A model generated the notes under the pieces. That model saw only the letters and a list, made by a program, of their open reading frames with translations. It was not told where the DNA came from and made no database searches. DNA of 64,000 bases from Oscillatoria sp. FACHB-1407 (GTDB lineage: Bacteria; Cyanobacteriota; Cyanobacteriia; Elainellales; Elainellaceae): NCBI RefSeq assembly GCF_014697545.1, contig NZ_JACJSA010000010.1, positions 62,001 to 126,000 of the forward strand, written 5' to 3'. Positions within the stretch are counted from its first letter, which is position 1. Each line of letters opens with the position of its first letter. Below are positions 3,805 to 32,416 of the stretch, piece by piece. The position numbers and the translations under genes were made by a program.

Positions 3805-6576
3805 TTAAGGACATAGAGTGCGATCGCGCTCTTCAACATTGGGGTTTGTACGAAGGTAATCTCGCAACCAATTACAACCCTGTGTCACTAAGTTCTCAAG
3901 GGACAGATCTTGCACATTCCATAGAATTACGGTCTGATCATCGCTGGTAGAGATCAGAGTTTGCCCATCCGGACTGAAGTTGACACTGGTTACGCCTTCC
4001 TGGTGACCCTTAAGGACGGTGATCAGAGAACCATCCCGTCGCCACACTCGAATCGTTTGATCATCACTGGCAGAGGCAATCATTTGTCCATCCGGGCTAA
4101 TACCAATCTCGTTAATTACCTTTGTATGTCCTTCAAGGACTGCGATCGGAGTGCCATCTAGATTCCAAAGGCGTAAGGTTTGATCATTGCCCGCAGAGAC
4201 GATGTATTGTCCATCGGGGCTAAATCTGGCACTGTAAACACTGCCCTCATGCCCTCGAAAAGAGCTAACTGGCGTACCATCTGTGTTCCACAGGTAAACC
4301 TGACCATCATCACTGGCAGTGACGATCAGTTCTCCATTGGGGTTAAAGTCAACGGTAAAAACACTACCTTCATGTTGCAGAATAGTTCCCTGATCTCCAT
4401 CTCGGTTCCACAAGCGAACGGTCTTGTCGTTGCTGGCAGAGGCGATCAAATTGCCATCTGGGCTAAAGCGGACATCATTAATCCAACTGGTATGTCCTCG
4501 AAATGTCCGAAACTCTTCCCCTTCTGGGTGACGCACCTCCACCAATCCCCCTTCTGAAGTACTGTCATCCCGGGAAATCACAAATACTGGGTTGGTCGGG
4601 CTAAAGTCAATCGCGCGAATTCCATTGATTTGCAGCGTCTTTAACAAGGCTCCATCTATCCGCCAAAACTGGATCGTGCCATCCTCGCTGAACGAGCCAA
4701 ACGATTCATCGCTTGGATTCATTCGGACTTGCTTGACTGCATCGGGGTGCCCTTCCAGCACCCTGCCCAAAGGATTATTAAGTTGCCAGAGCCGAATTGT
4801 ATCATCGTCACTGGCAGAAAGGAGGATTTCACCATTGGAGCTAAAGCTGAGACTTCTGACAGGAGCGGTATGCCCAAACAAGGTTGTTATGAGCGTGCCA
4901 TCGCGTCGCCACAGTTTAATCGTTTGATCTGTACTGGCTGTCGCGATCGCCTCTCCATTCGGGCTAAAGCGCACACTACGAATTGACTCTTCATGGGCTG
5001 CAAACGTAAACAGCGGAGTGCCATCGCGCCGCCATAGTTTGACCTCACCCTCAAAGTTAGCAGAGACGATGGTTTGTCCATCGGGGCTAAAGTTTACACT
5101 CCCAACTCTGGCTGTGTCTTGAAGCGTGCGAATCGCGGTGCCGTCGCGCTGCCACAGCTTAATCGTCGTGTCATCACTGGCGGAGGCTAAGACCTGTCCA
5201 TCGGGGCTGAAGCTGACCTCCCGAATTTGATCTTGATGGGCTGCTATGGGGGCGATCGCCGTGCCATCCACCCGCCACAACTGCATCGTGCCGTCATTTC
5301 TACCAGATGCAAAGATTTCACCATTGGGGCTAAAGCTGACCGAGCGGATTGTCTCGCCATTTCCTTCTAAGGTTGTGATTGGGGTTCCATCTCGTCGCCA
5401 AAGCTTGATCGTTCCCTCCAGGTCGCTAGAGGCGAGAATCTGCCCATCCGAACTGAAATCAACACTCAAGACACCATCCCTGTGTCCTTCTAAAGTTTTT
5501 ACCCAGGTTCCATCAGGTTGCCAAATGATAATGGTGCGATCGCCACTAGCAGAGGCAATGATTTGTCCATCTGGGCTAAAGCTCACACTGTTGACCCAGT
5601 CAGTGTGCTTTTCTAAGCGATTGCGCTCTTCAACCAGATAAAGTGCCTGCGTCAAATTCGCTAATGCTTGTAGTCGGGTGTCTCCTTGAACCCAGTCTGC
5701 GTCCAATAACATGGTGGCTGCTTTGAGGCTATCTATCAGAGCCTCAAAGTTTTGATCCACAACAAACTGGGCATTCGAGGAGGCACTGAGGGCTTTAATT
5801 TGACCCGCGATCGCCTCACGACGGTTTGCCTCTGCTTTTTGATATTGCGAGAGTGTGATTAATCCCAGGATTGTAGAAATCATCAACCCTAATGAAACGC
5901 TGACTAAAGCAATTCGTTGTCGCCTTCTTTCTCGTCTTTGATATGTATTTTCTGCTGATCGACTGGCAGCTAAGTAATCTCGTTGGAGTTCATTCGGTTG
6001 AGGGTTCTTATTAATCCCTTCCGCAGCCCATTGTTCCAATAGCTCCAGATCATTACCGCGTAGTAAGCAACTTTCGTCTTTTGCTTTTTGCTGCCATTCT
6101 TCAGCTTTTACCAACAGTCGAGTATGGGTTCTGACATGATCTAAGTCAGTATCAATAGCTTGTAATAAGGTCTGAAAGGACGTATCGAAATCATTGCTTT
6201 CTTCAAAGAAAATCCAATTTAATGCTGACAACGCTGGATGTACTTTATCAGCTTCAACATTGTGATACACAATTGGTACCAACCGTTTGTTGAGCTTGAT
6301 TGCGTGCTCAATTTCAACCTTACATTCATAGGAAGCAACTGAATCAGGGCTAATAATAAATAAAAATGCATTTGCTTCTACGATGCCATCGTAAATCTCT
6401 TGTCGCCAATTTGCGAGCGGTGGAATATCCTCCCAATCAACCCAAACGGAACGATTACTCTCTCTTAAAGCGGCGCATAACTTTTGCACAAAACTCTTAT
6501 CTCGCCGAGAGTAGGAGATAAAGACTTCGAGCATTGCTCCCGCTGAACTTGGTTTAAGGGTAGATGAATCAGTCAC
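3805..6576 (-). CDS. TIR domain / transmembrane / 14-blade WD40 protein
   Basis: Residues 15-135 form a TIR domain (VFISYSRRDKSFVQKL, VWVDWEDIPP, FLFIISPDSVASYECKVE). Glu88, in the helix matching the catalytic Glu of NAD-cleaving TIRs such as SARM1, is a candidate active-site residue. Residues 145-215 are a linker shared with the other TIR protein here (HTRLLVKAEEW, LLRGNDL, PQPNELQRDYLAASR). One hydrophobic helix at about 221-245 should span the membrane. From about 320 to 890 come 14 WD40 blades, several nearly identical (FSPDGQ, ASASDD, TIKLW), consistent with two seven-blade propellers. The tail reads CNWLRDYL, as in the paralog. There is no NB-ARC or NACHT ATPase. It is last in a three-gene minus-strand cluster, 50 bases after the protease gene. 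The function is inferred to be signalling or defence. Confidence 0.88.
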   Translation of the reverse strand: MTDSSTLKPSSAGAMLEVFISYSRRDKSFVQKLCAALRESNRSVWVDWEDIPPLANWRQEIYDGIVEANAFLFIISPDSVASYECKVEIEHAIKLNKRLVPIVYHNVEADKVHPALSALNWIFFEESNDFDTSFQTLLQAIDTDLDHVRTHTRLLVKAEEWQQKAKDESCLLRGNDLELLEQWAAEGINKNPQPNELQRDYLAASRSAENTYQRRERRRQRIALVSVSLGLMISTILGLITLSQYQKAEANRREAIAGQIKALSASSNAQFVVDQNFEALIDSLKAATMLLDADWVQGDTRLQALANLTQALYLVEERNRLEKHTDWVNSVSFSPDGQIIASASGDRTIIIWQPDGTWVKTLEGHRDGVLSVDFSSDGQILASSDLEGTIKLWRRDGTPITTLEGNGETIRSVSFSPNGEIFASGRNDGTMQLWRVDGTAIAPIAAHQDQIREVSFSPDGQVLASASDDTTIKLWQRDGTAIRTLQDTARVGSVNFSPDGQTIVSANFEGEVKLWRRDGTPLFTFAAHEESIRSVRFSPNGEAIATASTDQTIKLWRRDGTLITTLFGHTAPVRSLSFSSNGEILLSASDDDTIRLWQLNNPLGRVLEGHPDAVKQVRMNPSDESFGSFSEDGTIQFWRIDGALLKTLQINGIRAIDFSPTNPVFVISRDDSTSEGGLVEVRHPEGEEFRTFRGHTSWINDVRFSPDGNLIASASNDKTVRLWNRDGDQGTILQHEGSVFTVDFNPNGELIVTASDDGQVYLWNTDGTPVSSFRGHEGSVYSARFSPDGQYIVSAGNDQTLRLWNLDGTPIAVLEGHTKVINEIGISPDGQMIASASDDQTIRVWRRDGSLITVLKGHQEGVTSVNFSPDGQTLISTSDDQTVILWNVQDLSLENLVTQGCNWLRDYLRTNPNVEERDRTLCP

Positions 6577-6626
6577 CAGAACTTATCTCTCAAACTTATT
6601 TCTTGAATAGTTTTCAGCAGATTAAA

Positions 6627-9600
6627 TTAATCATTCCTTCCTATTTTCTCGCCCAAGTCAGTCATCCAATAAAAACTGGAACCCAAACCAAAATTGCCTG
6701 TTTCAGTCCATTCTGCCTTAATAAGTGACCACCAATCACGAGCTAAACCATTCAATACATAATCGTAGGGCAACCATCCATACCCTTTATTACCCCATTT
6801 AATTCCCCAAGAGTTTTTAACAAGAAATGCGCCTGAAGATGGAGCATTTTTAATATGTTTATAGTCGTCATATCCAACGGCAACAACCGCATGTCCACCT
6901 TCTCGTTTGTCTCGTAATCCTGGGAAGGGAATATGACCTGGCAAGTTAGAGCTGTCATGAATGGAATCATACAATGTGAAACCAAACATACACGGAAAAC
7001 CAGCGACTAAAACCGTTTTAATCTGAGCTAAAAGTTCTTCTGGAGAGATGCCGGGATCATCTAATCGAAAATAGGTAATGGCTTGATAGTTTTGGGCAAA
7101 GGCATAACAGAATGAAGATGGATCCTCATCAAAGTTATCTTCTGTATAGGGACAATATTCTTCAGGAGGAACACCAAACAACACCATCGCTTTCATCGTT
7201 TCTCGTACTGATGCTCCACTATCACCCTGGCGATGCATCAGGTTGCGAGTCACTTGATATAGAAACCGTCGCGAGGCATCTATAGCCGTCCCAAAACTGC
7301 GTTTCTCAAAATATTCAATTAAAGCGACTCCAGCATGAGCCGTACAGGAATTGATGGAGCCCTGATCTTCAATGGGGCTACACCAAATACTTAGGTCAAC
7401 GAATTGGGGTAAGGCGACATAAACATTGCTCTTTTTAAGATTACTCAAAATCTGTTTATGAAGGTTGCCACTGACTGGAATTTGTAATCGACAATCGGGA
7501 GATGGTGAAGTAACATCTCGAACATTGATAAAGGTGCGATCGCTCGCAGCTTGTTTCAATAAATGAACGTGAGATTGATCCAGTTTAATCAGATTATCAA
7601 CTTTAATTGAGTCAATAATAAAGTTAACTATTGACTGCGTGACTGATGTAACTATCTGGTTATCCTTCAACTCATGTTGGAAATCCTCTAGATCACTCAA
7701 TAGATCTTTGTAAACTTCTTGAATAACAACTTCAAGCACCTTCAACGTAATTCTTTGATGAATTGCAGAGCAATTAGTTCTGGAAAGACGACTCTTAAAG
7801 GTATCAACCAATGTTAAAATAACAGGCTTAAACTCATCCACTAAAGCTGTATTAGTCAGAGTAACGGCTGTTGCAGTGACTCGATTATTTCGCATGAAGA
7901 TTTGAAATCTTCGATACCAACTCTCCAAGTTTTCGGTTGAATATGAACTGTTATTTTTAATCTGCTCTAGTGCTTGTTCAAGTTTGATCACCTGAGCAAT
8001 GACTATAAAGGTATTGAAACCTGCGATCGCCGCTTTTTCTAATTCGGTATGACTCCCAATGGGTGAAATGATTTGGGCAATCACTGTGATAATAGGCTTT
8101 AATTCCTGTTCCAATCGCTTTGGAGGATACTCTGAAAGCGATCGCACCAACGCTTCATTAGTCTGTTTTCCAGCAATTCCATCTACCTTCAAACCTTGAC
8201 TCGACTGAAATCGTTTAACAGCTGCCTCTGTCGTTGAACAGAACGTTCCAGTGATGTTCTCCTGGTTCAAAAAATCGAGAAGACAGAGAGCCTTCTGTAG
8301 AGTTTCGACATGTGAATGAATATCTCCCTGATCGCAATATCCAAATTCAAAAGTATCTTCTATGAGTTCTAAATCACAGACGTTCAGCTTTTTAATCACC
8401 GCTTGAGTAATTTCATCAGGGATAGATGTCTCTAGAAATTCAAATGAATCGTCAACGATTTTCGTTAAAGCGTTGATTGTGTCTGGTCCTACTGAACTGT
8501 CTGCAACTAAATTGCGGCTCTTTTGAAATTTTTTGACTGCCTCCTCCGTTGTGTTTTCAAAATAGCCCACTGCTGGACCGTGATAAAAACCTAGAGCTTT
8601 TAGACGATATTGCAAAAAGATAACAGCTGGCTCGGAATTGCCTTTGTTGTAAATTTTATGACGCTGTAAAACCCGGCTAGAGACATAGCCTTTACCATTC
8701 TCAAGATAATCACTCATGCCTTTGAGTCTGGCTGTTTCTTCAAAATTAGGAATGATTTCAGCAGGGATTTGATTCAAGGTTTTATAAGCTTTTATCAAAT
8801 CGGATTCAGCATCAAATTGCCCTCCCAAAATGTCAGTCATACGAACGATCACTTCTACGAGTGGAGCAATTCTTTCCTTGAGAACTCTGCACTTTTCGTC
8901 ATCACTTGACTTTTCATTGAAATGAGTTCTTCCCAGGTATTTTTGGATGTCAACAAAACCTCCAAATTCTTCTATAAGACAATCATTTCCCCGATCGCCC
9001 TTCAAAACATCCAATATCAACCCCGTACATTTTTCAAACAATTGAAGTCGAATCGGTGAAGCGTGAAATTGAGGGGAGATATTCTGCTCATTTTTAAGTT
9101 TTTCGGTTAAAGTAGAGCGAGTTTTAGGACCAATTTTACCAAGCCCCAAGCTCAGATCTTGGTTCAATTCTTGGTGCTGAAAAGCCTTAACAGCTTGCTC
9201 AGTTAAATCATCAAATTTTCCGGTTACTGCAACCTCATATCCCAAAGTCTGTAATTGCAGTTGGGTGTAAAGAATTCCTGGGCCCCAGTCTCCTTTAACA
9301 TAGCTATCTCGATTTAAAATTCGTTCGCCAATACTGGAAAGTGCAGCAAGTTCTGCACGAGTCACTGAATTTAAAATTCCATTCGGCAATAATTTTTGTT
9401 GCTTCTGGAATTCCTGAACACTCTGTTCAGTGAAATGGTCAAAATAGCCTGTCGGTTCCGAGGAGTAGTACCCTAATCTCCTCAAATTCTTCTGTAAAAC
9501 TCTAACGTCTTCTCCCTGGTTGCCAAGCATTAAAATCTTTTCATCAATTGCTGCTGGCAAGAAATTGATTTTATGAATCGCTTCATTCTGAATTTCATGA

Positions 9601-9821
9601 TCAAGCGTCTCCAGTAAGGATGCACTGTCACCAGTTTGATTCTGCAACAGAGGAGCTAATTCTTTAAGAATTGCTGTCAATTTCTCGATTCTGCTGTTAG
9701 TGCGATCGCCCGTATCTAGCCCTTGAATCTTCTGCTGATTTTTTTGAATGCGGTCACTAGACAGTCTGCAATCTCGAATATCAGGATAATCGGGAACCCA
9801 TCCCATTCCTTTAGTTGCCAT
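6627..9821 (-). CDS. Papain-like (C1) peptidase with four peptidoglycan-binding-like domains
   Basis: A protein of 1064 residues. It opens with GWVPDYPDIRD, the usual start of bacterial C1 peptidases of this type. Four PG_binding_1-like modules lie at about 96-160, 170-240, 388-455 and 493-560, each with a LQxxLxxLGY-type helix and a TExAVxxFQ motif. A long helical region follows to about 780. The catalytic domain (about 795-1050) has the oxyanion Gln and Cys826 in EDQGSINSCTAHAG, His977 in GGHAVVAVGYDDY, and Asn1003 in FLVKNSWGIKWGNKGYGW, so it looks active. No signal peptide or membrane helix is seen, so the peptidoglycan-type modules may serve as pro-region or scaffold. Its place between two TIR-WD40 genes suggests a shared pathway. 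Its substrate is unknown. Confidence 0.85.
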   Translation of the reverse strand: MATKGMGWVPDYPDIRDCRLSSDRIQKNQQKIQGLDTGDRTNSRIEKLTAILKELAPLLQNQTGDSASLLETLDHEIQNEAIHKINFLPAAIDEKILMLGNQGEDVRVLQKNLRRLGYYSSEPTGYFDHFTEQSVQEFQKQQKLLPNGILNSVTRAELAALSSIGERILNRDSYVKGDWGPGILYTQLQLQTLGYEVAVTGKFDDLTEQAVKAFQHQELNQDLSLGLGKIGPKTRSTLTEKLKNEQNISPQFHASPIRLQLFEKCTGLILDVLKGDRGNDCLIEEFGGFVDIQKYLGRTHFNEKSSDDEKCRVLKERIAPLVEVIVRMTDILGGQFDAESDLIKAYKTLNQIPAEIIPNFEETARLKGMSDYLENGKGYVSSRVLQRHKIYNKGNSEPAVIFLQYRLKALGFYHGPAVGYFENTTEEAVKKFQKSRNLVADSSVGPDTINALTKIVDDSFEFLETSIPDEITQAVIKKLNVCDLELIEDTFEFGYCDQGDIHSHVETLQKALCLLDFLNQENITGTFCSTTEAAVKRFQSSQGLKVDGIAGKQTNEALVRSLSEYPPKRLEQELKPIITVIAQIISPIGSHTELEKAAIAGFNTFIVIAQVIKLEQALEQIKNNSSYSTENLESWYRRFQIFMRNNRVTATAVTLTNTALVDEFKPVILTLVDTFKSRLSRTNCSAIHQRITLKVLEVVIQEVYKDLLSDLEDFQHELKDNQIVTSVTQSIVNFIIDSIKVDNLIKLDQSHVHLLKQAASDRTFINVRDVTSPSPDCRLQIPVSGNLHKQILSNLKKSNVYVALPQFVDLSIWCSPIEDQGSINSCTAHAGVALIEYFEKRSFGTAIDASRRFLYQVTRNLMHRQGDSGASVRETMKAMVLFGVPPEEYCPYTEDNFDEDPSSFCYAFAQNYQAITYFRLDDPGISPEELLAQIKTVLVAGFPCMFGFTLYDSIHDSSNLPGHIPFPGLRDKREGGHAVVAVGYDDYKHIKNAPSSGAFLVKNSWGIKWGNKGYGWLPYDYVLNGLARDWWSLIKAEWTETGNFGLGSSFYWMTDLGEKIGRND

Positions 9822-9956
9822 AACTGCTACGGGGCTATAAATTAACGGATTACTGCTATTAAAACTGGCATTTTCACAACTGATGCAACATGTTTTTAAT
9901 TCTTCAGGAACCCTGCCACAGGCTTAAGACAGGTTGACTCTTCACGTTTTTAAGGA

Positions 9957-12900
9957 CTACGGTGTGGAACGGTCGGCACAGGCTTCTCGCACATCGACCT
10001 CAACCGTGGGATTGTTGCGTAGATAATCACCGAGCCAATCGCAACTGAGTTGCATCAGTTGATCCACATTTTGAACCGGATCGAGATGCCACACGATCAA
10101 GGTGCGATCGTCACTGGCACTGACGAGATAGTAGTCTTGCGAGCTAAAGTCAACACTGTTAATCGCTCCTGTTTGCCCTTGCAGCGTGGTTAACAACATG
10201 CCACTACGCCGCCAGAGTTTCACGGTGTTGTCAAAACTGGCAGTAGCGATCGTCTGCCCATCCGGGCTAAAGCTGACATCCACGACTCCGTCGGTGTGTC
10301 CCTGCAACGTACTAATGGGAGTACCATCCCGTTCCCACAATTTGACGGTGTTGTCGAAACTAGCAGAGGCGATCGTCTGTCCATCGGGGCTAAAGCTGAC
10401 GTTGTAGACCCAGCCACTATGCCCGGTAAGGGTGTCTTGTAGGGTGCCGTCTAGGCTCCAGAGTCGAATTGTATTGTCCCAACTGCCACTGGCAATGGTT
10501 TGTCCATCGGGGCTGAAGTTAAGACTGAGAATGCCGCTGGAATGTCCTGTAAAGGTTCTGACTAATGTGCCATCTCGTCGCCAGAGGCGAATTGTTTTGT
10601 CTTCACTAGCAGAGGCGATCAGCTGACCATCGGGGCTAAAGGCAGCATCCCGAACGGGGGCGGTGTGCCCTACGAAGGTTTGCAACAAATTGCCATTGCG
10701 ATCCCATAATTTCACGGTGCGATCGCTGCTAGCAGAGACAAAGGTCTGTCCGTCGCGGCTATAGTTGACATTCCAGACGGGTCCCTCATGCCCGGTGAGG
10801 GTTCTCAACAAAGTGCCATCTCGATTCCACAATTTGATCGTGCGATCGGCACTGGCAGACGCGATTTGTGCTCCATCCGGCGAGAAGGTTGCGTCATAGA
10901 CCTGGGCACGGTGTCCTTGCAAGATGCTGATGTGTTTGCGGTTGAGTTCCCACAGACGGACGGTGCGATCGCCACTCGCGGAGATGAGCCATTGCCCATC
11001 GGGGGTAAAGCTCAAGCCCCGCACTTGAGAACTGTGTCCCTGGAGGGTATTGACCAACGATCCATTCACGTTCCATAGACGGATCGTTTTGTCGAGACTG
11101 GCAGTGGCAAAGGTGCGCCCATCGGGGCTAAAGCTGACATCAAAGACAGGCGCATTGTGAGCAGGAATCATCCGAATCAGGCTCCCATCCCGTTGCCACA
11201 GACGGACGGTGTAGTCCCAACTACCCGTCACGATGGTTTGACCATCGGGGCTAAAGCTGACGCTAGAGAGGCGAGCGGTGTGTCCCCGCAGAGTTGTTAC
11301 CAGGCCTCCGTCGAATCGCCAAAGTTTTGCGGTGCTGTCGTCGCCTGCGGTGACGATTAACGCCCCATCTGGGCTGAAGTGAACCTCCCAAATGGTGGCT
11401 CGATGTGCTTGAATCGTGCGAATCAAGCGACCATCCAGTTCCCACAGCCGAATGGTGCCGTCTTCGCCAACTGTGGCGATCGCATCTCCAGTTGGGTTAA
11501 AGGCAATACTATTGACCGACCCACGATGCCCGGTGAGGGTCGTTACAAGACTGCCATCTAAACGCCAGATCTTGGCTGTGCCATCCTCGCTGGCAGAGGC
11601 AATCAGGTTGCTATTGGGGGAAAAGGCAACAGAGAAAATTTGGGCTTTGTGCCCAGTCAGAATATCAAGGGACTTGCCATCGGGTTGCCACAAGCGCACC
11701 GTGCGATCGGCACTGACCGAGGCAATGTATTGACCATTAGGGCTGACACTGACATCCCACACAATGCCGTTATGCCCAACAAAGCGGTTGCGCTCCTGCA
11801 CCCAAAAAACAGCTTCTTGCAGAGCCGTCAACGCCTGAACTTCCAGAACTTGACGGGTCGTTGCTTCGGGAGGGTGTTCCTTGAGCAGATGTTGCAAAAC
11901 CGAAACAGCACGAACGGCTTCCAGCAGCGCATCAAACTCCCGATTGGTTAAAAACAGAGCTTCAGACGCTTTACTCAGGGCTGCGATCTGCTTTTGCTCT
12001 GCCAAAATTTGTTGTTCCTGCGCTTCTTGACGGCTCGCCTGGGCACTGCGATAGAGCACAAACGACCAGACTCCCAAAATGAGGGCAAGCCCGGACATAA
12101 TAGCCACGACGATTAGCAGGGCCTGTTGCAGCTTCAGTTGCGATCGCTGCCGATTGATCTCAGATTCTTGTCGTTTGGTTTCCGCATCGCGAGACGCCCA
12201 GATGTAATCCCGCTGGATTTGCATCGGTTGCGGGCTCTTGTCAACGCTATTGGTCAGCCATTCCTGCGCCTGTTGTAGGTCACTACCACGCAACAAAAAG
12301 CTGTCATCCTGAAGTTTGTCATGCCACTCATTGGCACGCACCAAAAGCCGTGTGTGTTGCCGCACATAATCGACATCTACGTCCAGAGCGGAAAGGAGTT
12401 TGCGAAACCCACTATCAAAGTCGTCTTGCTGACGTAAAAAGATCCAGTTGAGTTTGGCTAATTCTGGATGAACGAGATAGGGATCAACCTCCTTCCAGAC
12501 CACAGGCACCAACCGTTTGTTATTTTTGATGGCACACTCAATTTCTCGCCCGCAGACCTCTGATTTTACGGATTCGGGGCTGATGACAAAGATAAAGGCA
12601 TCGGCTAACTCTATCCCAGTTTGGATTTCTTCCCACCAATCCGTCGCTGAGGGAATGCTTTCCCAGTCAACCCACACCTCACGACCCCGCTTTGCCAGGG
12701 CACTATGCAGATTTTTGACAAAGTCTTTATTGCGCCGGGAATAGGAGATAAAGACGTTGGCGGCGTCTGTCTGGCTGTTTAGCACCTTCCAGACATCTTT
12801 TGGCATCTGGCGGCTCGATTTGTGTGCCAACCGAACCCGATAGTAAACTTTGCCATCCTCCCTGATTTCTTTGGCGTAATTTTGCTGAATCAGAGATTGC

Positions 12901-13085
12901 AGATGAGTGATTGTCGTGGCTTCGTCTTGTTTGAGATAGGCAGCGGCTTCAGCCAGGGTGACTTGCTCCTGACGAATCATCCAATTCACCAGACGCGGCA
13001 AAGGCGGTGGCAGAGTCAGAATGTCTGCCATTTTTAACCCGGTCATACCGGGATCGTTTGTTTGAGGCTGGCGTGTGTCTGTCAT
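9957..13085 (-). CDS. Winged-helix / TIR / transmembrane / 14-blade WD40 protein
   Basis: A paralog of the 3805-6576 gene with an added N-terminal domain. Residues 25-95 look like a winged helix-turn-helix (VTLAEAAAYLKQDEATTITH, then DGKVYYRVRL as wing). The TIR domain is at about 110-225 (VFISYSRRNKDFVKNL, VWVDWESIPS, FVISPESVKSEVCGREIE), with candidate catalytic Glu181. The shared linker (HTRLLVRANEW, LLRGSDL, PQPMQIQRDYIWASR) precedes a membrane helix at about 321-345 and a charged coiled region. Fourteen WD40 blades fill the rest, with near-repetitive FSPDGQTIASAS and LTGHxxxV motifs, again suiting two seven-blade propellers. It is the first gene of the minus-strand cluster; 135 bases separate it from the protease gene. 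Its winged helix could bind DNA or act as a protein-binding adaptor. Confidence 0.87.
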   Translation of the reverse strand: MTDTRQPQTNDPGMTGLKMADILTLPPPLPRLVNWMIRQEQVTLAEAAAYLKQDEATTITHLQSLIQQNYAKEIREDGKVYYRVRLAHKSSRQMPKDVWKVLNSQTDAANVFISYSRRNKDFVKNLHSALAKRGREVWVDWESIPSATDWWEEIQTGIELADAFIFVISPESVKSEVCGREIECAIKNNKRLVPVVWKEVDPYLVHPELAKLNWIFLRQQDDFDSGFRKLLSALDVDVDYVRQHTRLLVRANEWHDKLQDDSFLLRGSDLQQAQEWLTNSVDKSPQPMQIQRDYIWASRDAETKRQESEINRQRSQLKLQQALLIVVAIMSGLALILGVWSFVLYRSAQASRQEAQEQQILAEQKQIAALSKASEALFLTNREFDALLEAVRAVSVLQHLLKEHPPEATTRQVLEVQALTALQEAVFWVQERNRFVGHNGIVWDVSVSPNGQYIASVSADRTVRLWQPDGKSLDILTGHKAQIFSVAFSPNSNLIASASEDGTAKIWRLDGSLVTTLTGHRGSVNSIAFNPTGDAIATVGEDGTIRLWELDGRLIRTIQAHRATIWEVHFSPDGALIVTAGDDSTAKLWRFDGGLVTTLRGHTARLSSVSFSPDGQTIVTGSWDYTVRLWQRDGSLIRMIPAHNAPVFDVSFSPDGRTFATASLDKTIRLWNVNGSLVNTLQGHSSQVRGLSFTPDGQWLISASGDRTVRLWELNRKHISILQGHRAQVYDATFSPDGAQIASASADRTIKLWNRDGTLLRTLTGHEGPVWNVNYSRDGQTFVSASSDRTVKLWDRNGNLLQTFVGHTAPVRDAAFSPDGQLIASASEDKTIRLWRRDGTLVRTFTGHSSGILSLNFSPDGQTIASGSWDNTIRLWSLDGTLQDTLTGHSGWVYNVSFSPDGQTIASASFDNTVKLWERDGTPISTLQGHTDGVVDVSFSPDGQTIATASFDNTVKLWRRSGMLLTTLQGQTGAINSVDFSSQDYYLVSASDDRTLIVWHLDPVQNVDQLMQLSCDWLGDYLRNNPTVEVDVREACADRSTP

Positions 13086-17475: not shown

Positions 17476-17653
17476 TTACAAAAAACTAACGTTTCCGTGC
17501 GAAACGCGATTGCTATAGGTAGGATTCATACATTCCTTGAGATTTAGAAACGGCTGCTAACCATTTCCAGTACCCTTAATGTTTAACGGTTTAGCCTTCT
17601 TCAATTTCATTCTTCGTTTTATCCGTCACAATTTTGTTCCTCGCAACAGGTTC

Positions 17654-18397
17654 ATGGAAAAACCCTTCCAAATCACCTTCCCCAATCGTGCGATCGCCAC
17701 TGCGGTTCATCTCCAAACTCCAGCAACCCTTCCACAGACATTGCAAGAGTTGGGATTGCCCAAAAGACGGCGTGTGTTGGTGGTGATCGGGGGTGCCAGT
17801 AAGTTGAGCACAGAGGATTTCAACCGAGTCCAACTGTTGTTTCTAGAAGTGCTCGCTCCATTAGCGATGAAATGGGGAGCCTGTGTGGTGGATGGGGGCA
17901 CTGATGCCGGAGTTATGCGACTGATGGGACAAGCACGCTCAACCCTCAAAGCCTCTTTTCCTTTAGTTGGCGTGGCTCCAGTTGGGTTAGCCGTGTTGCC
18001 CGGTCAAATCGCAGCTTCACCAGACGCCGCTCCTTTAGAGGAAAATCACACCCACTTTCTTTTGATTCCAGGGTCAAATTGGGGCGATGAGTCTCCCTGG
18101 ATTGCGGATGTGGCGACGGCTCTGGCAGAAGATCAGCCGTCCGTAGCCATCTTGATCAATGGGGGTGAGGTGAGTTGGAAGGATGCATCCCAAAATGTGC
18201 AAGAGGGACGAGCAATCATCACGATCGCGGGTAGCGGGCGCACAGCCGATATCCTGGCAGCAGTGTTGCGAAGACAAGCGGATGATCAACGAGCTCAAGA
18301 AATCATAAAATCTGGACTAGTGCAGGCGATAGATTTGACTGCCGGACGTGAAGAATTGACTAAGACCATAGAAATGATTTTTGCAGGTAAGGAATAA
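17654..18397 (+). CDS. TRPM-type SLOG (LSDAT) domain protein
   Basis: A 247-residue Rossmann-like protein that I assign to the prokaryotic SLOG-in-TRPM (LSDAT) family, whose members are predicted to bind NAD/ADP-ribose-type nucleotides or related signals. Landmarks are VLVVIGGASKLS near residue 45, CVVDGGTDAGVMRLMGQA, PLVGVAPVGL, LEENHTHFLLIPGSNWGDES, AILINGGEVSWKD and IITIAGSGRTADILA. The start is taken as ATG at 17654, 25 codons inside the longest frame, because the upstream part is hydrophobic and unlike the family. The downstream gene, 62 bases away on the same strand, encodes a DUF4231/SLATT-like membrane protein; such pairings are described as nucleotide-sensor plus membrane-effector modules (Burroughs and colleagues' SLOG/SLATT work). 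Confidence 0.75.
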   Translation: MEKPFQITFPNRAIATAVHLQTPATLPQTLQELGLPKRRRVLVVIGGASKLSTEDFNRVQLLFLEVLAPLAMKWGACVVDGGTDAGVMRLMGQARSTLKASFPLVGVAPVGLAVLPGQIAASPDAAPLEENHTHFLLIPGSNWGDESPWIADVATALAEDQPSVAILINGGEVSWKDASQNVQEGRAIITIAGSGRTADILAAVLRRQADDQRAQEIIKSGLVQAIDLTAGREELTKTIEMIFAGKE

Positions 18398-18459
18398 TAC
18401 CTTACTAGGAACTGACATAGAAGCACCGATGAGCTGCGATCGCAATCAGGGAGAATTGA

Positions 18460-20220
18460 ATGACATCCGACACTCCAACGACTTCCCCTCGTAACCCCAC
18501 CCTTGAAGATGCCTGGGACCGTTACAGTCGATACGACTTCAACGCCAGCAAAGCTCAAAAGCGATTTTTTCAACAGCGCAAGCTGATTTTAATCCTGGGA
18601 GTTGCAGCGACGACTCTAGCCATTATTTACACCGTTTTAGAAACTAGAACCGCAAATGGCATTCCCTGGTTGCCTGAGTCCATCAACACATTTTTGAGTG
18701 ATCAGTTTTTGCCCGCCTTGCATGTGCTGGTTGTCCTCGTTCCCATTCTCTCGACTGCACTGATCGCCTACTCCCTGCGGTTTAACATGGGGGTTAACTG
18801 GATTTCGCTGCGGGGTAGTGCAGAGGCACTGAAAAAAGAAATCTACCTCTATCGGATGCGCGTCGGCGAATATAGCCCGACTATGCTGGGTAGTGAGTCA
18901 CGCGATGTGCATCTTGCCCGTAGGGCAAAAATCATTAACAAACGTCTGATGGAGACTCAGGTCAATCAGACGGGGTTAGAGGCATACAAAGGCAAACTGC
19001 CACCCCAATACAGCACGGCTGAGGGGGATGATGGCTTTAGCGATATGACAGCAGAGCAATACTTGCTGTGGCGCATTGAGGATCAGTTCAACTACTACCA
19101 ACGCAAGTCAGTCAAATTCACGCGCGAGTTGCAGCGGTTTCAACTGATGATCATTTTGTTGGGGGGCGTAGGTACAGCATTAGCTGCCTTCAACCTGGAG
19201 ATTTGGGTTGCTATTAGTGGAGCATTAGCAACCGCATTCGCTACCTTTTTAGAGTTTAAGGGGGTTGAAACAACCATCGTCGCCTGTAACACAGCAGCGG
19301 CAGATTTATACGATGTGCGGACGTGGTGGCGTGCCCTCTCAGACGATGCTAAACAGTTATCAAACAACGTTGAGACACTGGTTCACAGTGCAGAGGCGAT
19401 CGTCCAGAGTGAGAATGCAGGCTGGGTGCAAGAGATGCGCGATGCTCTGGCTGAGATCTACAGTGGCGACAAAGAAGAAGTCTCTAAGAAGGAAGCCTTT
19501 GCCCCGGTTCTGGGCAAGGATTATGTCCCTGAGCACGCCATCAGCAGCGAGGCAACGCAATCTGACGGGTTCCAGGATGGATCAGAGATGGCATTCAGCA
19601 CCACTGCTGATGCACCCTCTGACACGATGTCAACTGATATGCCAGTTGATGGCACAACAGACGCTTCCATAACAGACATTCCTGCTGGGGAGGTTCCTGC
19701 TGACTTCACCAGTGACGGGAGTGTTGCTGGGGATGAGATGCCTGCTGATCCACTGATGGCAGATATGTCCGTTCCTCCGGCTGACCCAGACCCGTTTGGA
19801 GAGCCTCCTGCTGAGCCTGTCGTACACGAGGAATTCATGGCAGACACTCCAGTAGATCCCTATATGGATGCCTCAGTTGACTCTTCTGACTCATCTATGG
19901 AATCAACCACTGATGCCCCTATCGATGCTGCTACGGATGATCCCTCTGTGTATGGGTCATTGGGTGTGGCTGTAGATTCTCCAGAGGATACCCTAGTGGA
20001 TGGCTCGTTCGACACCTCAGCAGATAGCTCCGTTGTGAGTCCCGTCGAGATGCCTTTGGATGCTCCGATTGAGCTAGCCCTGGAAGAACCGATTGCAACC
20101 GTGCCTCTTGCAGAAGAAACAACACCCTCCGCTGAACCAACCAGCACAGACGCTTCTGCTGACGAGCAACCCTCGGACAACCCCCAGGAAGATGAACCCT
20201 CGATGACAACCGTGATTTAG
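18460..20220 (+). CDS. DUF4231/SLATT-like membrane protein with acidic low-complexity tail
   Basis: A protein of 586 residues. Four hydrophobic segments are visible in two pairs (about 41-60 and 84-105; 227-245 and 247-265), each pair followed by a conserved helical stretch (NWISLRGSAEALKKEIYLYR; VETTIVACNTAAADLYDVRT). This is the layout of DUF4231, part of the SLATT two-TM family predicted to form membrane pores or effectors under control of a SLOG or nucleotide-cyclase partner. From about 370 to the end the chain is rich in Asp, Ser, Thr, Pro and Ala with many DAPxD-like repeats and no predicted fold. It lies between the SLOG gene and a second SLATT-like gene, all on the plus strand. Confidence 0.72.
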   Translation: MTSDTPTTSPRNPTLEDAWDRYSRYDFNASKAQKRFFQQRKLILILGVAATTLAIIYTVLETRTANGIPWLPESINTFLSDQFLPALHVLVVLVPILSTALIAYSLRFNMGVNWISLRGSAEALKKEIYLYRMRVGEYSPTMLGSESRDVHLARRAKIINKRLMETQVNQTGLEAYKGKLPPQYSTAEGDDGFSDMTAEQYLLWRIEDQFNYYQRKSVKFTRELQRFQLMIILLGGVGTALAAFNLEIWVAISGALATAFATFLEFKGVETTIVACNTAAADLYDVRTWWRALSDDAKQLSNNVETLVHSAEAIVQSENAGWVQEMRDALAEIYSGDKEEVSKKEAFAPVLGKDYVPEHAISSEATQSDGFQDGSEMAFSTTADAPSDTMSTDMPVDGTTDASITDIPAGEVPADFTSDGSVAGDEMPADPLMADMSVPPADPDPFGEPPAEPVVHEEFMADTPVDPYMDASVDSSDSSMESTTDAPIDAATDDPSVYGSLGVAVDSPEDTLVDGSFDTSADSSVVSPVEMPLDAPIELALEEPIATVPLAEETTPSAEPTSTDASADEQPSDNPQEDEPSMTTVI

Positions 20221-20237
20221 CAGAAGTGAGATCGTTT

Positions 20238-20981
20238 ATGTCAGACGACAGTCGTACTGAATCTCCGGTTGCACCCTCAATGAGTACTGCTCCTCTGGAC
20301 ACTACCTCCCTGTCTACTGATTCCATTCCGTCTGCTTCAGATCGCCCCTCTAGATCAGCACCGTCTAGTGCTCCTGAGTCGAAAGCCAATAAATCTAAGA
20401 GCTATACTGAGCAGCTCAAAGAAGATTTCGAGAAGATTTTTGATTCGCTCAACTTAGACAGTCCTGATGGCAGAAAAGCCTCACTCAATAAAGCTTTTCT
20501 AAAATCGCGCTGGCTCGATCAGATTTTATGGATGGAAGCGAAGTCAGCTCAATGTCGCAATCGCCACTTTCGGTTGCGATTGATCACAATCATCGGAGGG
20601 GTAATCGTACCCATTTTGGTGACGTTTAACGTAGACAATCAACGTCTTCAAGATGCGATCAAACAAGCCACAATCGTCATTAGTGGTGCGGTTGCTGTCA
20701 CAGCAGCGATCGAGGAGTTTTTTCAATATGGCAAACGCTGGTACAACTATCGCCGTTCAGCGGAGTCCTTAAAAGCTCAGGGTTGGCATTTTTTTCAACT
20801 GAGTGGACCCTATCGCACCTACCCCAGCCATCATGAGGCGTTTCAAGCCTTCGCTGAAAACATCGAGGAGATTATTCAGCACGATGTTGAAACCTATGTC
20901 ACACAAAATCAGCAAAACAAACAGGGACAGGGGCAGCAATCCTCTCAGGAAAACAGCGATGGCGATCAAGCTGTCATCTAA
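20238..20981 (+). CDS. SLATT/DUF4231-like two-TM membrane protein
   Basis: A 247-residue protein from ATG 20238, chosen over an in-frame GTG four codons upstream. The first 60 residues are Ser/Thr/Pro-rich. The core begins at SLNKAFLKSRWLDQILWMEA, followed by two hydrophobic helices (LITIIGGVIVPILVTFNV and ATIVISGAVAVTAAIEEFF) and the SLATT-like YGKRWYNYRRSAESLKAQGW segment, then a helical tail with YRTYPSHHEAFQAFAENIEE. The C-terminal 25 residues are Gln/Ser-rich. The gene begins 17 bases after the stop of the previous SLATT-like gene, so the two are almost certainly co-transcribed and may hetero-oligomerise. Confidence 0.75.
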   Translation: MSDDSRTESPVAPSMSTAPLDTTSLSTDSIPSASDRPSRSAPSSAPESKANKSKSYTEQLKEDFEKIFDSLNLDSPDGRKASLNKAFLKSRWLDQILWMEAKSAQCRNRHFRLRLITIIGGVIVPILVTFNVDNQRLQDAIKQATIVISGAVAVTAAIEEFFQYGKRWYNYRRSAESLKAQGWHFFQLSGPYRTYPSHHEAFQAFAENIEEIIQHDVETYVTQNQQNKQGQGQQSSQENSDGDQAVI

Positions 20982-24502: not shown

Positions 24503-25576
24503 TTACTCAGCCGACGGATCGCGATCTAGAATGCCTCGCGACAATACACGAGTTTCTAAGGTCGGTAAAAACGCTCTATCCGTTGCAATTCCAGGACGAC
24601 CTCTCGCATTGCCACGAACAAACAGAATGGAATCCTGGTTCACACCCGGATCAGTATCTCGAATCGTACTAACACAGGCATAGAAGCTCGTTCTGGCATT
24701 GCCTAAACCAGCATTATTCAAAGCCGTTGTTGTGGGGCTAAGGCTGTAATCTATGCCCGGTGTAGCCGCACTATTAGGACAAACTGCATTGGTGACCAGG
24801 CTAGGAATACCGGATGCTTGTGCCCCTCTGCCATCGTCCACAAAGTCTACTAAAACGGCTGGATTCCCAGTGGGACGCTGAGCCTGCAAGTTTACGACAG
24901 TATTGTTTGCACCTCGTCCAAAAGGCCAACCCCCAAAGTTGATCGCTTGAGCAGGAGAGACATAACCCACGGTTGGTGCACCTGTTCTTTCATCAAACTG
25001 AGTTAGCGCATAACGAGTAATTCGCGCTCTCCCCTTCCACAGGTTCCCGGTGTTGGCAGTACTCAGGGAATAAACCACTAAAGCGTAAGAGTGGGTTGTC
25101 AAACACGGAACTGTTGCCAAAGCCGGATTGTTTGCTGCTCCACACTGGTTGCGTAACACAGTCGGAATTTGCTGCTGTCGCCAAAAAGCCACCACGGGAA
25201 TGCTCTCAGTACTAAGCGCAGCTGGCAAATAGGGTGTCAGACCAGGGCAGAAGGGTGGGCTATCAACCCCCAACGCTCCCTGACCCTGTAGGCATTCTCC
25301 GGTGTAAACGTAGATTGCCTCCCGCATTTCGTTGCTCATGTAGTCCATCGCTCTCTGAAGCTCTCGCTGAGTTTCGTTGCGCGATGCCTCACGCTGGTCA
25401 GATCCCATTAGCTCGATCACCATATACAGCAGACCTGTGATAATTCCAGCTGCAATAATGGTGACGATTAACAATTCAATTAAGGTGAAGCCTTGAGGGC
25501 GGTTGCGACGACTGAAATTCCAAAGCCATTTCAGTTGAAAGGTGGGAGATGTTTTAGCCATTACGGTTGACCCCAT
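24503..25576 (-). CDS. hpsC: Hormogonium polysaccharide secretion pseudopilin HpsC-like
   Basis: A 357-residue prepilin with cleavage after Gly29 (PQGFTLIELLIVTIIAAGII) and mature Glu5 (Glu34). The following helix carries RNETQRELQRAMDYMSNEMR, as in PilW/HpsC-type minor pilins. The long C-terminal part is a predicted beta-rich, Asn/Pro/Gly-rich extracellular domain with several Cys. The start could also be the Met at residue 6. It stands 30 bases after hpsB, within the hpsA-B-C-pilin order known from Nostoc punctiforme, where these genes are needed for hormogonium polysaccharide release and motility. Confidence 0.8.
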   Translation of the reverse strand: MGSTVMAKTSPTFQLKWLWNFSRRNRPQGFTLIELLIVTIIAAGIITGLLYMVIELMGSDQREASRNETQRELQRAMDYMSNEMREAIYVYTGECLQGQGALGVDSPPFCPGLTPYLPAALSTESIPVVAFWRQQQIPTVLRNQCGAANNPALATVPCLTTHSYALVVYSLSTANTGNLWKGRARITRYALTQFDERTGAPTVGYVSPAQAINFGGWPFGRGANNTVVNLQAQRPTGNPAVLVDFVDDGRGAQASGIPSLVTNAVCPNSAATPGIDYSLSPTTTALNNAGLGNARTSFYACVSTIRDTDPGVNQDSILFVRGNARGRPGIATDRAFLPTLETRVLSRGILDRDPSAE

Positions 25577-25606
25577 TCCAGTAGTTAAGGGTAGGTAATA
25601 CGCAAT

Positions 25607-26365
25607 CTATCGACAGTTAGCCTGTCCCTGGTTTCTGTGAATCTGACAAAGATTGAAGCTCTGATCGCTCCAATTCATTCGTGAGTAAAGCACAGCCAGA
25701 GGGCGACGACGTTGGCTGCCCTGACCACTGGTCAGCCGTAGAGATGCTTGTTGGGTTTCCAGAGAACCCAAGTTGTTTTGTGCCAGGAAGGAGTACACTC
25801 TCACGCCCACGACAAAGTCAGTCCGACGTTGCAGAGCCGCAGGGTTATTGGTCGGGTCTTCAGATGCCGGAAGCGATCCATCGGTACGGAACACTTGCAT
25901 CAGGAAATCAAACTGACAATCCCCATCTACGTCAACTCGCAGAGCCGATGTCGCAGGAATTTGTTCATCGTTGTAGGTGTTACAAGATGAATTAATCGAT
26001 CTGAGCTGGTTAGAAAGCCCACTTGGTGCAGCCGGATTGGTTGCTGTACCGACTGCTGCTGGAAGCCGACCGGGTGTATTTTGCCCCTGAGACACCAGGA
26101 CTCGCAGGCGATCGATCTCCCCTTGTGCGAGTTGTAGGGCTTGCTCAGCCCGACGGTTTTGTACCCGTGTCGCCGTTGCAATAAACAGCGGTGGGGTAAT
26201 TAGAGCGGCTGTTAGCATGATGACGGCGATCGCCATCAAACATTCCAGCAGACTCAACCCGTCCTCAGAAGAAGACCGTCCACGCCGTGCTGCTAGTAGT
26301 AGACCCAGGATACTCAGTGATTGGTTTGGAGAAGAACGACGTACTGCCATGATGTGCTTCCTCAT
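25607..26365 (-). CDS. hpsB: Hormogonium polysaccharide secretion pseudopilin HpsB-like
   Basis: A 252-residue prepilin with an unusually long basic leader. Cleavage is expected after Gly36 in EDGLSLLECLMAIAVIMLTA, giving mature Glu5 at residue 41; the mature protein starts with Leu rather than Phe. The helix ALQLAQGEIDRLRVLVSQG follows the hydrophobic segment. The rest is polar with an RTDFVVGVRVYS stretch. It lies 75 bases after hpsA and 30 before hpsC, so it is probably part of one transcript. Confidence 0.82.
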   Translation of the reverse strand: MRKHIMAVRRSSPNQSLSILGLLLAARRGRSSSEDGLSLLECLMAIAVIMLTAALITPPLFIATATRVQNRRAEQALQLAQGEIDRLRVLVSQGQNTPGRLPAAVGTATNPAAPSGLSNQLRSINSSCNTYNDEQIPATSALRVDVDGDCQFDFLMQVFRTDGSLPASEDPTNNPAALQRRTDFVVGVRVYSFLAQNNLGSLETQQASLRLTSGQGSQRRRPLAVLYSRMNWSDQSFNLCQIHRNQGQANCR

Positions 26366-26440
26366 CGGCTTGCCAGTTTAGTAAGGGGAGGGGTTTCCCA
26401 AACAGCAGTTAAAGGAAACCCCACTGCGTTTCATTCACGG

Positions 26441-29400
26441 TTAGGGAGGACAGTTGCCACCTGCCGCGAGACAGAGGTTGCGAATGTACGGATCATTAGC
26501 CGGAGGCTCTGTATAGAACTCATCCCGAACGGACTTCGAGGTCACAAACCGTTGGGCGATCGGACCAGCAGGAGCGTACTGCAAGCCGACATCATAACCC
26601 CAACGACGGAGAGGCGGTGAGTAGTAGGGGATAACCTCAGCCGACTGAGCAGGAGCACCGACTTCAAAGGAGTCCTGGTCAAAGGGTGCCGTTGCGTGGT
26701 TGCTGAAGTTGAGCTGTAAGAATGATCCACCAATGTAAAGGGCCTGATTTCCCCAGTTCTCGATAAATCGAGGGAAGTTGTGCAATCCACCATAGGATTG
26801 GTTGGGGCGAGAGGGGGTTAGACCACTGATAATAATGGCGTTCACACGAGTATTCGCCACCCCTGGCATTAGCGGTTTACCACTTGTCATAGCAGCATAG
26901 CCCTGAGCATAATCAACCGCTGTGTTTGGAGTTGTCATCACCATCGGGTTGTTATCGCGAGTGAGGACATAGGGAGAGGTTCCCTCTTCAATCCGGATAC
27001 GAGGGTTAGCCGTCAACGCATCCAGGCTCATACTATCAGCGGCGTTTGCTCGCAGCCAGGTCGTTCCAATGGTGTTCTGAGGAGGCAACGACAGAGGGCG
27101 GTTTTGGTTGAGATAAGACGTGAGAGTATGGCTGGAGGTACAACCATATTCCGCCATCTTGGTGGCACCAACGTTGTTATTGGTCATGGCGTTGCGATCA
27201 AAGGTGTCTTCGATACTGCCATCACAGAAGTTGTCTGAGATGATCGTAATCGCGTCTGCCAAGATCTCTGTTGGACGCCACTCATCGGTTGCTGGTCGGG
27301 AGAAAGAACCATCTAATGTGGTGCGATCGTAAAAGTTGGTGAAGTCGTCGGCAAGGGGTTGAGTAAACTCCTCGAGTCGAGCACCAGCACCATTTTGGTG
27401 CAAGTTGAAGTTGCCCTGGATATACACTGGGTTGTCCGAAACCAGCGACAGACCTCGACCTGCATCACCCGTACGCCCTAATCTCTCCCCACGCCGTAAA
27501 CGGAATCCATGCGGACGACGATCGGGATCGGCATAGTAATCAACCGGTTTGGGGCTGATGGCATTGTCAGTGCTGATAGGTGGATCTGTGGATCTATACG
27601 CAGACCGACTTGACGATACTGACCCCGTATTCATTCGACAGGATGCATCAGTTTGCAGCGTTGTGTTGTTCCGACAAGATGCCCAGGACCCACCCGTCGG
27701 TCTGACAATCTCCATTTCTGACACCGCATCCTCACGGAAGGCATAGATAATGCCAGAACGAGGCAACAGGAAGTCGCCATTGTAAGTCGCACGGCGCATC
27801 AAATCCAGGTTCATGTCAAGCGTTCTAACGCTCATCATTTCCCGTCCGTTGAACAGTGCAGAATCCTTAAACGGAACTCTCGCGAAAATGGCACTTGTTC
27901 CTTGATAAGGAGTTGGTCGAGCTGCCAGAGCCGATCCAGATGTATTACGAAGACAGGGAGTTGAACAGATCTTGATTAGTGTGTCGCGGTTGTTGCTGGG
28001 CGTATCAAACGTACTTCCAACCACTTCGTTCGTTAACACCCAGGATGCTCGCTGGCGAGGCAACACTCTCACTAACTCTGGATCAATCACTTGATAGATT
28101 CTTCCAGTGTTAGTCAGGGTGATGTATGGATCCGTACTATCTTCAGAGTCACGGCTAACCTCAACCTCTTCCCCGTGTGACTCAAACCCTGAATAATCTG
28201 GCGTGAAATCAGTTACAGGATTGCTCGTCGCAAAGGGAATCAGGTCATCCTTCGCTGGGAACAAGGAATAGAGGATGGGATAACGTGGACGACCGGAACA
28301 CAGGATTTGCAATGGTTCTGCGTTCACCGTACGGGTTGGTGTTGCACCTCCAGCCGGCAATGGCACCCCACCTCGATAGGACAAGCACCGCCCTAAAGGA
28401 GCCTGACCCACCGCAACACTGGCGGCGTTTGCTGTATTACCGGAACCAAAGAACCCAAAGCGGCGATCGCGAGCGACCTGTTCCTTCGTGATCAACAGCT
28501 GTGCCAGATAAATCTGAGCATTCAACTGGTCGATCTTGTTGAAGGGGCGGTTGTTTTGCGCCATCCAGTCTCGCCATTGCTCCAGGAAGCGGACAAAGAC
28601 CTCTGGATTTTGAATCTGGTTTGGATCGATGTAACCATTACCCGTGATATCAGCCAGGGTGTTGGTAAAGAAGCTTTGAGGCGGGTCATCTACCGTGTCT
28701 ACCCGCTGAGCACGCATGATTTGCCGAATCTTCCCACGCAAACCAACCCAATAATCAGGATCGCCTGGGTTATCACTGGGTAGAAGCGGATCACCAACCG
28801 CATAACCCAACAAGGTTTGTGGGAAATTAGGGTTACTGGCTGGATCGAGCGGATCAAAGTTTTCTAGATAATCAATGTTGAACGCCAACATCCCCATCAT
28901 GCAACCCGCCGTGTGCAACGTTGTTTTATCCGCAGGGCTGAGGCTGTCATATCCATTAGTTGACACCAGGTCTAACACCCGCCGCAACATCGAGAAGTCG
29001 CCCCACATCGACATGGATGGGTAAGGATGGACGTTCCGATCTTGCACTGGAGTAAAGGATGGCGCACCACCCAACGGATCACCTGCAAACGTTGCTAAGT
29101 TGCGCAACGCTAACATGAGTGGGCTTCCTGCATTACGAAATGCAGCTTCATCCGGTGGAGCAAACTCCCAACCGTTCGTGCCACGACCTCTAAAGAAGTC
29201 TGTTTGAATGGGTACACCGCTATAACCAGGGAGTTGGTAAGCATTAGGCGTTTGTCCCATGTACAGCAGGTTTTCAAACGTCGCACTCTTTGCCAGTGTG
29301 GTCGAGGTACCTGGATGCGTGGTCATTGCTAAACAAGCAATGGGGAAGTCACGGTTGGCAGGTCCTGCTGCGGAATGATAAATAGCAGCAGCCTGCACAG

Positions 29401-32205: not shown

Positions 32206-32416
32206 ATCAAAAATTACAGTAACTGAAGGGTCATCTGGAACGGACTGTAGGCAGGGAATTCCTGCTAGCAAAACAGCCTCCACTCCTGCTGTTCTAACCG
32301 TCTCCACAGTCATAGCTTTGCTCAAAAGCTGATGGCAGAGGCAATAGCTCAAACTCTAATTCTAGGAGAGCTTGCTGACTCGCCTTTGCCCCATCGAATA
32401 TGGCTACGGCTATACT

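Follow-up and report, generated by a model that had tools for sequence, protein, structure and literature searches.

A 64,000-nucleotide stretch of the Oscillatoria sp. FACHB-1407 genome (C10:62001-126000 of 8.13 Mb in 66 contigs), hereafter the window, carries three large genes, P0001, P0002 and P0003, in which the gene of a papain-like (C1) protease lies between those of two TIR-WD40 proteins. The span 3805-13085, the minus strand and the intergenic gaps of 50 and 135 bases given in the original prediction, which was made from the letters alone, were confirmed by open reading frame (ORF) calls (3805-6576, 6627-9821 and 9957-13085). Comparison with other genomes points to a recurring unit of a protease with a long insert and a putative membrane-spanning WD40 receptor. 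The features of the three genes, all on the minus strand, are as follows.

3805..6576, minus strand: P0001 (923 residues, GTG start); TIR domain, helical linker, transmembrane (TM) helix, WD40 array of about 14 blades, tail with a Cys pair
6163..6525, minus strand: TIR_2 domain of P0001 (residues 18-138) with Glu88 inside; Pfam E 3.1e-28
5857..5913, minus strand: TM helix of P0001 (residues 222-240); 19-residue Kyte-Doolittle mean 2.38
3862..5619, minus strand: WD40 array of P0001 (residues 320-905); Pfam WD40 stretches
6627..9821, minus strand: P0002 (1064 residues), predicted long-insert xylellain-type C1 peptidase
9762..9803, minus strand: prosegment motif region of P0002, GWVPDYPDIRDCRL (residues 7-20); residues invariant among long types
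8136..9560, minus strand: first part of the P0002 insert (about residues 88-562) with four PG_binding_1-like stretches; Pfam
6630..7424, minus strand: C1 catalytic domain of P0002 (residues 800-1064) with Gln820, Cys826, His977 and Asn1003; Pfam and alignment
9957..13085, minus strand: P0003 (1042 residues); winged-helix-like region, TIR domain, helical linker, TM helix, WD40 array of about 14 blades, tail with a Cys pair
12834..13001, minus strand: winged-helix-like region of P0003 (residues 29-84); AlphaFold secondary structure
12393..12755, minus strand: TIR_2 domain of P0003 (residues 111-231) with Glu181 inside; Pfam E 1.5e-29 and Foldseek
12066..12122, minus strand: TM helix of P0003 (residues 322-340); 19-residue Kyte-Doolittle mean 2.63
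10086..11765, minus strand: WD40 array of P0003 (residues 441-1000) without Cys; Pfam and Cys count

P0001 has the architecture of P0003 without the winged helix. The earlier description of both as TIR/TM/14-blade WD40 receptors held for the TIR domains, TM helices and WD40 arrays, and 14 blades each is plausible, the counts ranging from 12 to 15 (for P0001 and P0003, respectively, 12 and 14 Pfam stretches, 14 and 15 matches to a loose motif pattern, and 12 and 12 to a stricter one). The only Cys in the P0001 array, residue 901, is the first of its tail pair (901 and 922), and the tail behind the P0003 array has two (1015 and 1036). The winged helix claimed for P0003 found no match in Pfam, but the AlphaFold model of residues 29-84, with three helices and two strands (block means of the predicted local distance difference test, pLDDT, 66-86), is consistent with such a fold. 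In a model of P0003 residues 1-440 the TIR domain was matched by Foldseek to the structures of SPARTA TIR-APAZ, SARM1 and AbTir, and the catalytic Glu was invariant across 11 aligned sequences. Both window TIR domains have the fold and catalytic Glu of TIR NADases and may cleave nicotinamide adenine dinucleotide (NAD). The residues singled out beforehand (Glu88 of P0001, Glu181 of P0003 and Cys826 of P0002) were all correct when the letters were checked. Promoter-like sites (8 vs a shuffle mean of 12.8) and terminator-like sites (10 vs 9.0) were not in excess, and because they were no commoner than in shuffles, a single transcript for the three genes is suggested by spacing only.

Pfam also bore out the C1 peptidase with four peptidoglycan-binding-like modules, finding Peptidase_C1 and four PG_binding_1 in P0002. 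The best solved match of its C1 domain was PDB 3ois, a bacterial cysteine protease (E 1.8e-33), and its nearest named relatives were from Stenomitos, with C1 parts 73 and 75% identical to that of P0002. P0002 resembles the xylellain-type C1A peptidases (PDB 3ois; PMC10380794) in its catalytic domain, the Cys/His/Asn residues and a weakly similar prosegment, the similarity of this stretch to PDB 3ois scoring 1.6 bits, a weak match. The G(W/Y)-PD-D-RD prosegment is present at residues 7-17, and G7, W8, P10, D11, P13 and D17 of this motif as well as Q820, C826, H977 and N1003 were invariant in 15 long types, a long type being a C1 gene with at least 200 residues ahead of the catalytic domain. By these catalytic residues and this prosegment, P0002 is a predicted xylellain-type C1A peptidase. 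Unlike ordinary members, however, the long types have 205-1023 residues ahead of the catalytic domain and are constantly accompanied by a WD40 receptor gene; their prosegment motif mostly stands at the very start, whereas in short aligned members the GW-PD-D-RD prosegment lies only a little way ahead of that domain. A relaxed prosegment pattern fitted 37 of 46 unsplit long genes, with close variants in some of the other nine. PG_binding-like stretches varied in number among relatives (four in P0002, two in L066, one in L068), and these modules were dropped as a defining feature of the system.

None of the 46 unsplit long genes had a hydrophobic start and Cys amounted to 1.07 per 100 residues, so the protease, lacking an export signal, is strongly predicted to be cytosolic. 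Five long genes were split over two or three ORFs, whose lengths were simply added; the WD40 ORF beside them was long in L044, L246 and L252, truncated at the contig end in L267 and a fragment of 468 residues in L259. Relatives of the C1 domain also occur in other settings: a short C1 gene of the window's own genome (L036, G000:C2:624931-625668), 63% identical to the P0002 catalytic domain, has no WD40 neighbour; 31 viral contigs (L146-L176) encode relatives, and xylellain-type peptidases in phages are mentioned in PMC10380794; and a further short C1 gene (L049), perhaps for a leader peptidase, is preceded, 61 bases upstream, by a gene that combines DUF4135 with LANC_like, a combination seen in LanM lanthionine synthetases.

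The distribution of the protease was examined by searching its C1 part in four overlapping genome sets at different thresholds: the order (36 genomes), the phylum (386), one family (217) and the class (387). Neighbourhoods were taken for all listed matches of the phylum, family and class sets and for 10 of the 17 of the order set, and ORFs called in them were scanned with queries from the window and relatives. The resulting 94 C1 rows comprised 51 long types, 32 others, three at contig ends (L238, L261 and L279) and eight with matches worse than E 1e-40; the contig-end and weak rows are not part of the counts that follow. A same-strand WD40 gene adjoined 50 of the 51 long-insert C1 genes, the exception (L270) beginning near a contig end. 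Of the 32 remaining C1 genes, all below E 1e-40, none had such a neighbour (Fisher p 1.7e-23 excluding L270, a statistic that ignores relatedness). The neighbour was upstream in 44 cases and downstream in eight, two loci being in both counts, and the gap between receptor and C1 ORF ranged from -47 to 325 bases (median 71; 47 neighbours less than 500 bases away). The co-occurrence of protease and WD40 genes in cyanobacterial genomes, whose examination had been proposed as a check, is thus beyond chance, and the objection foreseen there, that homologs might usually lie without TIR genes nearby, splits along the same line: the other C1 genes had no same-strand WD40 neighbour (0/32), but nearly all long-insert genes did (50/51). 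Chance adjacency in a WD40-rich genome, for which the at least 33 WD40 ORFs of the window's genome and its 13 further TIR+linker genes entered in a tree might be cited, is extremely improbable against these counts, the common strand, the mostly short gaps and the spread over several genera. On the evidence of gene order, the long-insert C1 protease and the predicted TM-WD40 receptor form a recurring unit.

A scan of named sequences, made with four C1 domains as queries and covering the best 80 of 261 relatives (species that overlap with the genome-set sample), gave the same picture. All 16 long types were cyanobacterial (Stenomitos, Nostoc, Desmonostoc, Nodosilinea, Symploca, Scytonema, Rhizonema and Pseudanabaenales) and had a WD40 neighbour, as did each of four mid types, and none of 57 short types had a WD40 gene within three genes on either side; of the remainder, one of the 80 lay at a contig end and two had no called C1 ORF. 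A contig search with the full-length protease as query returned no relative. A quick tree was built from 103 C1 domains; 34 of its 100 inner branches were open, and L302, L303, L305 and L306 were among the rows that drew long-branch warnings. In it, a branch with support 85, not starred, separated the long types and L238, L261, L270 and L279 (53 rows together) from the rest. No pairing of a C1 protease with a TM-WD40 receptor was described in the literature searched; subscription papers fell mostly outside it, and the pairing may therefore have been published elsewhere.

The three-gene order itself, which the original prediction had treated as essential, was confined to the window among the 51 long loci, no other having a TIR receptor on both sides. 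Apart from the window, only L290 has WD40 genes flanking the long C1 gene on either side, and its downstream WD40 protein has no helix above threshold and 15 propeller Cys. Among the 32 other C1 genes, 20 had no WD40 neighbour and 12 stood tail-to-tail with a WD40 ORF (L052-L054, L262, L264-L266, L268, L269, L273, L276 and L300), which was a whole caspase-nSTAND1-WD40 gene in 9/12 and a piece in 3/12. The tail-to-tail group formed one side of a branch of the C1 tree with support 37. A tail-to-tail C1 gene with a caspase-nSTAND1-TM-WD40 gene represents a second association of a protease with a membrane receptor, and such caspase-nSTAND1-WD40 neighbours are of the cyanobacterial metacaspase-WD40 kind (PMC2853523).

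The N-terminal module of the WD40 partner varies. Module assignment relied on single-query phmmer searches, with one or two examples per kind confirmed by Pfam; in the 46 partners where one was seen, it was TIR in 19 (the contig-end L279 counted), nSTAND1 in 14, AAA_35 in nine, triple TIR in three and TIR-nSTAND1 in one, whereas none was seen in six long loci. The C1 tree needs six module changes for 45 of these partners. TIR in any form occurred in 23/46 (L279 included), and since half of the partners bear nSTAND1 or AAA_35 instead, a TIR product is unlikely to be the general trigger of the protease, as had been proposed; TIR was likewise dropped as a defining feature. Because the module varies and the TM helix and propeller are constant, the protease appears to go with the membrane-propeller part, not with TIR. 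A STAND (NACHT/nSTAND) receptor was rejected for P0001 and P0003, whose N-terminal parts contain no STAND NTPase by Pfam; the earlier remark that an NB-ARC or NACHT switch is missing fits these two but not relatives with nSTAND1 (L045, L046). The two-receptor system originally suggested therefore survives in that the genes belong together and fails in taking TIR and the three-gene order as its core. As predicted from sequence, the unit is a long-insert C1 protease plus a membrane-spanning WD40 receptor with an exchangeable cytosolic module.

The constancy of the TM helix and propeller, as opposed to the N-terminal module, would also suit regulated proteolysis, in which the protease cuts the receptor near the membrane and frees the TIR or STAND module, the module being the effector and the protease its trigger or brake. 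An effector-freeing peptidase has been proposed for VMAP systems (told in PMC10907252), but many TM-WD40 receptors lack a protease partner, and this explanation is considered unlikely, if worth keeping in mind.

With regard to receptor origin, P0001 grouped in a TIR+linker tree with partnered receptors (from Stenomitos-like and other genomes) and a few unpartnered ones, that is, receptors not beside a C1 gene detected at the thresholds used. P0003 was nearest by path to unpartnered receptors, and no starred set contained either protein. With moderate support, P0003 looks like a later recruit joined to the P0002-P0001 pair. Three Nostoc-like genomes had a single TIR+linker match (E <= 1e-30), adjoining the protease, two Stenomitos-like genomes had 10 and 9 matches at the same threshold, and besides P0001 and P0003 the tree held 13 genes from the window's genome that were unpartnered. 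Variants of the receptor include L308 (own genome, C21:7000-19500), with three tandem TIR-TM-WD40 genes that have more than 200 residues after the array and no tail Cys pair, and L278, L298 and L301, in which several consecutive TIR domains, numbering three in L278 according to Pfam, precede the TM helix.

The topology of the receptors was considered from hydropathy, Cys content and charge, a hydrophobic helix being a 19-residue mean above 1.5. Such a helix preceded the propeller in 56 of 58 WD40 proteins longer than 850 residues within the neighbourhoods, comprising 46 long-C1 partners (L279 counted), nine caspase-type neighbours and one unrelated protein (L050); the partners cut by contig ends (L244, L267, L277, L282 and L285) and the L259 piece are left out of the helix and tail figures. 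Cys was scarce in the propellers of these 56 proteins, at 0.045 per 100 residues vs 0.93 in their N-terminal parts; 55 of them had a Cys pair within the last 55 residues, and net charge was higher on the N side of the helix in 49, equal in five and lower in two. Among the WD40 genes in the matches listed for the window's own genome, 16 proteins with the helix next to the propeller had 0 or 1 propeller Cys each, 12 of them with two Cys in the last 60 residues, whereas 15 without a helix had 0.34 to 3.16 propeller Cys per 100 residues (mean 1.8). The difference between TM and non-TM proteins gave a Mann-Whitney p of 2e-5 with L349_1 and L350_2 kept in the TM set; these two, with many Cys and a TM helix far from the propeller, are excluded from the 16. 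L312, a TIR-WD40 protein without a membrane helix, keeps two tail Cys and has 14 propeller Cys. P0001 and P0003 each share the traits of the pair, being encoded on the strand of the adjoining long-insert C1 gene, with a tail Cys pair and a propeller otherwise free of Cys. Because the propeller is almost free of Cys, the tail holds a Cys pair and the charges around the helix favor this orientation, there is a strong case that the propeller lies outside the cytoplasm with one disulfide and the TIR domain inside.

Taken together, these observations suggest, with a probability of about 45%, a two-component outside-in alarm circuit of receptor and protease. The receptor would be a single-pass membrane protein whose TIR module (STAND-type or AAA_35 in relatives) faces the cytoplasm and whose double WD40 propeller, closed by the tail disulfide, lies in the periplasm or thylakoid lumen. 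Its partner would be a cytosolic xylellain-type C1 protease whose fast-evolving insert, probably a docking and control part, separates the prosegment from the catalytic domain. On sensing a ligand or a disturbance of the envelope, the propellers would cause the cytosolic modules to cluster; the clustered module might act itself, in the case of TIR by NAD cleavage or a signal, in parallel to the protease, and by contacting the insert could release the prosegment and switch the protease on. The active protease may then cleave proteins of the cell or the invader, resulting in growth stop or cell death. In the window alone, a second TIR receptor would be joined to the pair. TIR activity, activation by contact, the effector role and defence are steps that we only infer.

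Sequence conservation was lower in the parts assigned to sensing and docking. Ten Nostoc-like receptors had a mean identity of 73% in the propeller vs 85% in TIR, lower in 42 of 45 pairs, although these pairs are not independent, which lessens their weight for the circuit; in the Nostoc-like proteases the insert showed 51% (pairs with unsplit genes) vs 85% in the catalytic domain. These values suit sensing and docking parts, not exclusively.

Several further points weigh against the alarm circuit. The membrane helices were called by hydropathy only; two own-genome WD40 proteins without a helix were also low in propeller Cys (1 and 2), the tail Cys pair was absent in 4/16 own-genome proteins with a helix and two tail Cys were present in 4/15 without one, and copying among repeats could partly account for the low propeller Cys. 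TIR-TM-WD40 and other TM-WD40 genes occur without the protease, indicating a receptor independent of it. The insert is poorly conserved among long types and the predicted model of P0002 is poor (mean pLDDT 52), so that docking and prosegment release are without structural support. Moreover, PADLOC gave no match to the protease at E 0.01, and the other Pfam-scanned genes of the window mostly do not belong to defence families.

The proposed circuit has partial counterparts among known systems. Like the nSTAND1/EAD conflict systems of multicellular bacteria (accessible parts of PMC8195603 and PMC7159879), it has exchangeable TIR, STAND and peptidase modules, with nSTAND1 in the receptors of relatives; unlike them, the window receptors are devoid of STAND, and the long-insert C1 pairing and the membrane-crossing propeller are absent from those parts of both accounts. 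In the cyanobacterial metacaspase-WD40 proteins a single chain carries the protease along with as many as 15 WD40 repeats (PMC2853523, accessible part), whereas here the protease is papain-type and separately encoded; that part of the account is silent on propeller topology. A papain-like domain has likewise been proposed as a conflict effector in the case of the EAD1-linked papain-like peptidoglycan peptidase of NucA/trypsin systems, but that case, unlike the window pair, has an EAD adaptor, a proposed peptidoglycan target and no WD40 receptor (PMC7159879, accessible part). P0001 narrowly passes the Pfam ThsB_TIR cut-off (23.8 vs 21.2 bits; PADLOC ThsB models <=34 bits). Thoeris and a MoxR-vWA (VMAP) ternary system were both rejected, no SIR2 or Macro family and neither MoxR ATPase nor vWA being found in the 29 of 51 window ORFs (at least 130 residues) scanned with Pfam.

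Toll-like receptors have a sensor outside, a TIR domain inside and one membrane helix between. By analogy, the predicted window receptors are similar in outside sensor, inside TIR and single helix; they differ in reversed chain order, in WD40 instead of leucine-rich repeats and in being bacterial, and the analogy does not imply that the proteins as a whole share an ancestor. In prokaryotes, immunity through TIR and STAND proteins is mostly regarded as cytoplasmic sensing. It is tentatively possible, though rather doubtful, that the unit belongs to a new bacterial immunity or cell-death pathway with a Toll-like TM receptor, periplasmic WD40 sensing, an exchangeable TIR/STAND module and a papain-type executioner protease. 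If so, the cell would detect infection at its envelope and not in the cytoplasm, and a recurring family of outside sensors with a linked protease would give bacteria a Toll-like outside-in receptor pathway, in which the natural module swaps offer a ready test of the protease switch.

The same topology could serve a non-defence envelope-stress or developmental pathway, with propellers that monitor the periplasm and a protease that degrades a regulator. The probably periplasmic propeller, the patchy occurrence of C1 matches of any type in large genomes (43/217 and 36/387) and the mostly ordinary genes among the scanned window neighbours would agree with it; however, TIR, nSTAND1 and caspase modules, like the swapping of such modules, are characteristic of conflict systems (PMC8195603 and PMC7159879), and the faster change of propeller and insert fits conflict, though not exclusively, making such a pathway quite improbable.

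Two other gene groups were observed in the window. At 17579-20981, about 4.5 kb from the cluster, an LSDAT_prok (SLOG) gene precedes two others, with SLATT_1/DUF4231 and DUF4231/SLATT_3 domains, respectively, and the three make a set of the conflict type. At 24503-34952, a gene of 1586 residues and two of 252 and 357 residues, all without a Pfam match, are preceded on their strand by the gene of an HSP90-like ATPase and possibly form a new system.

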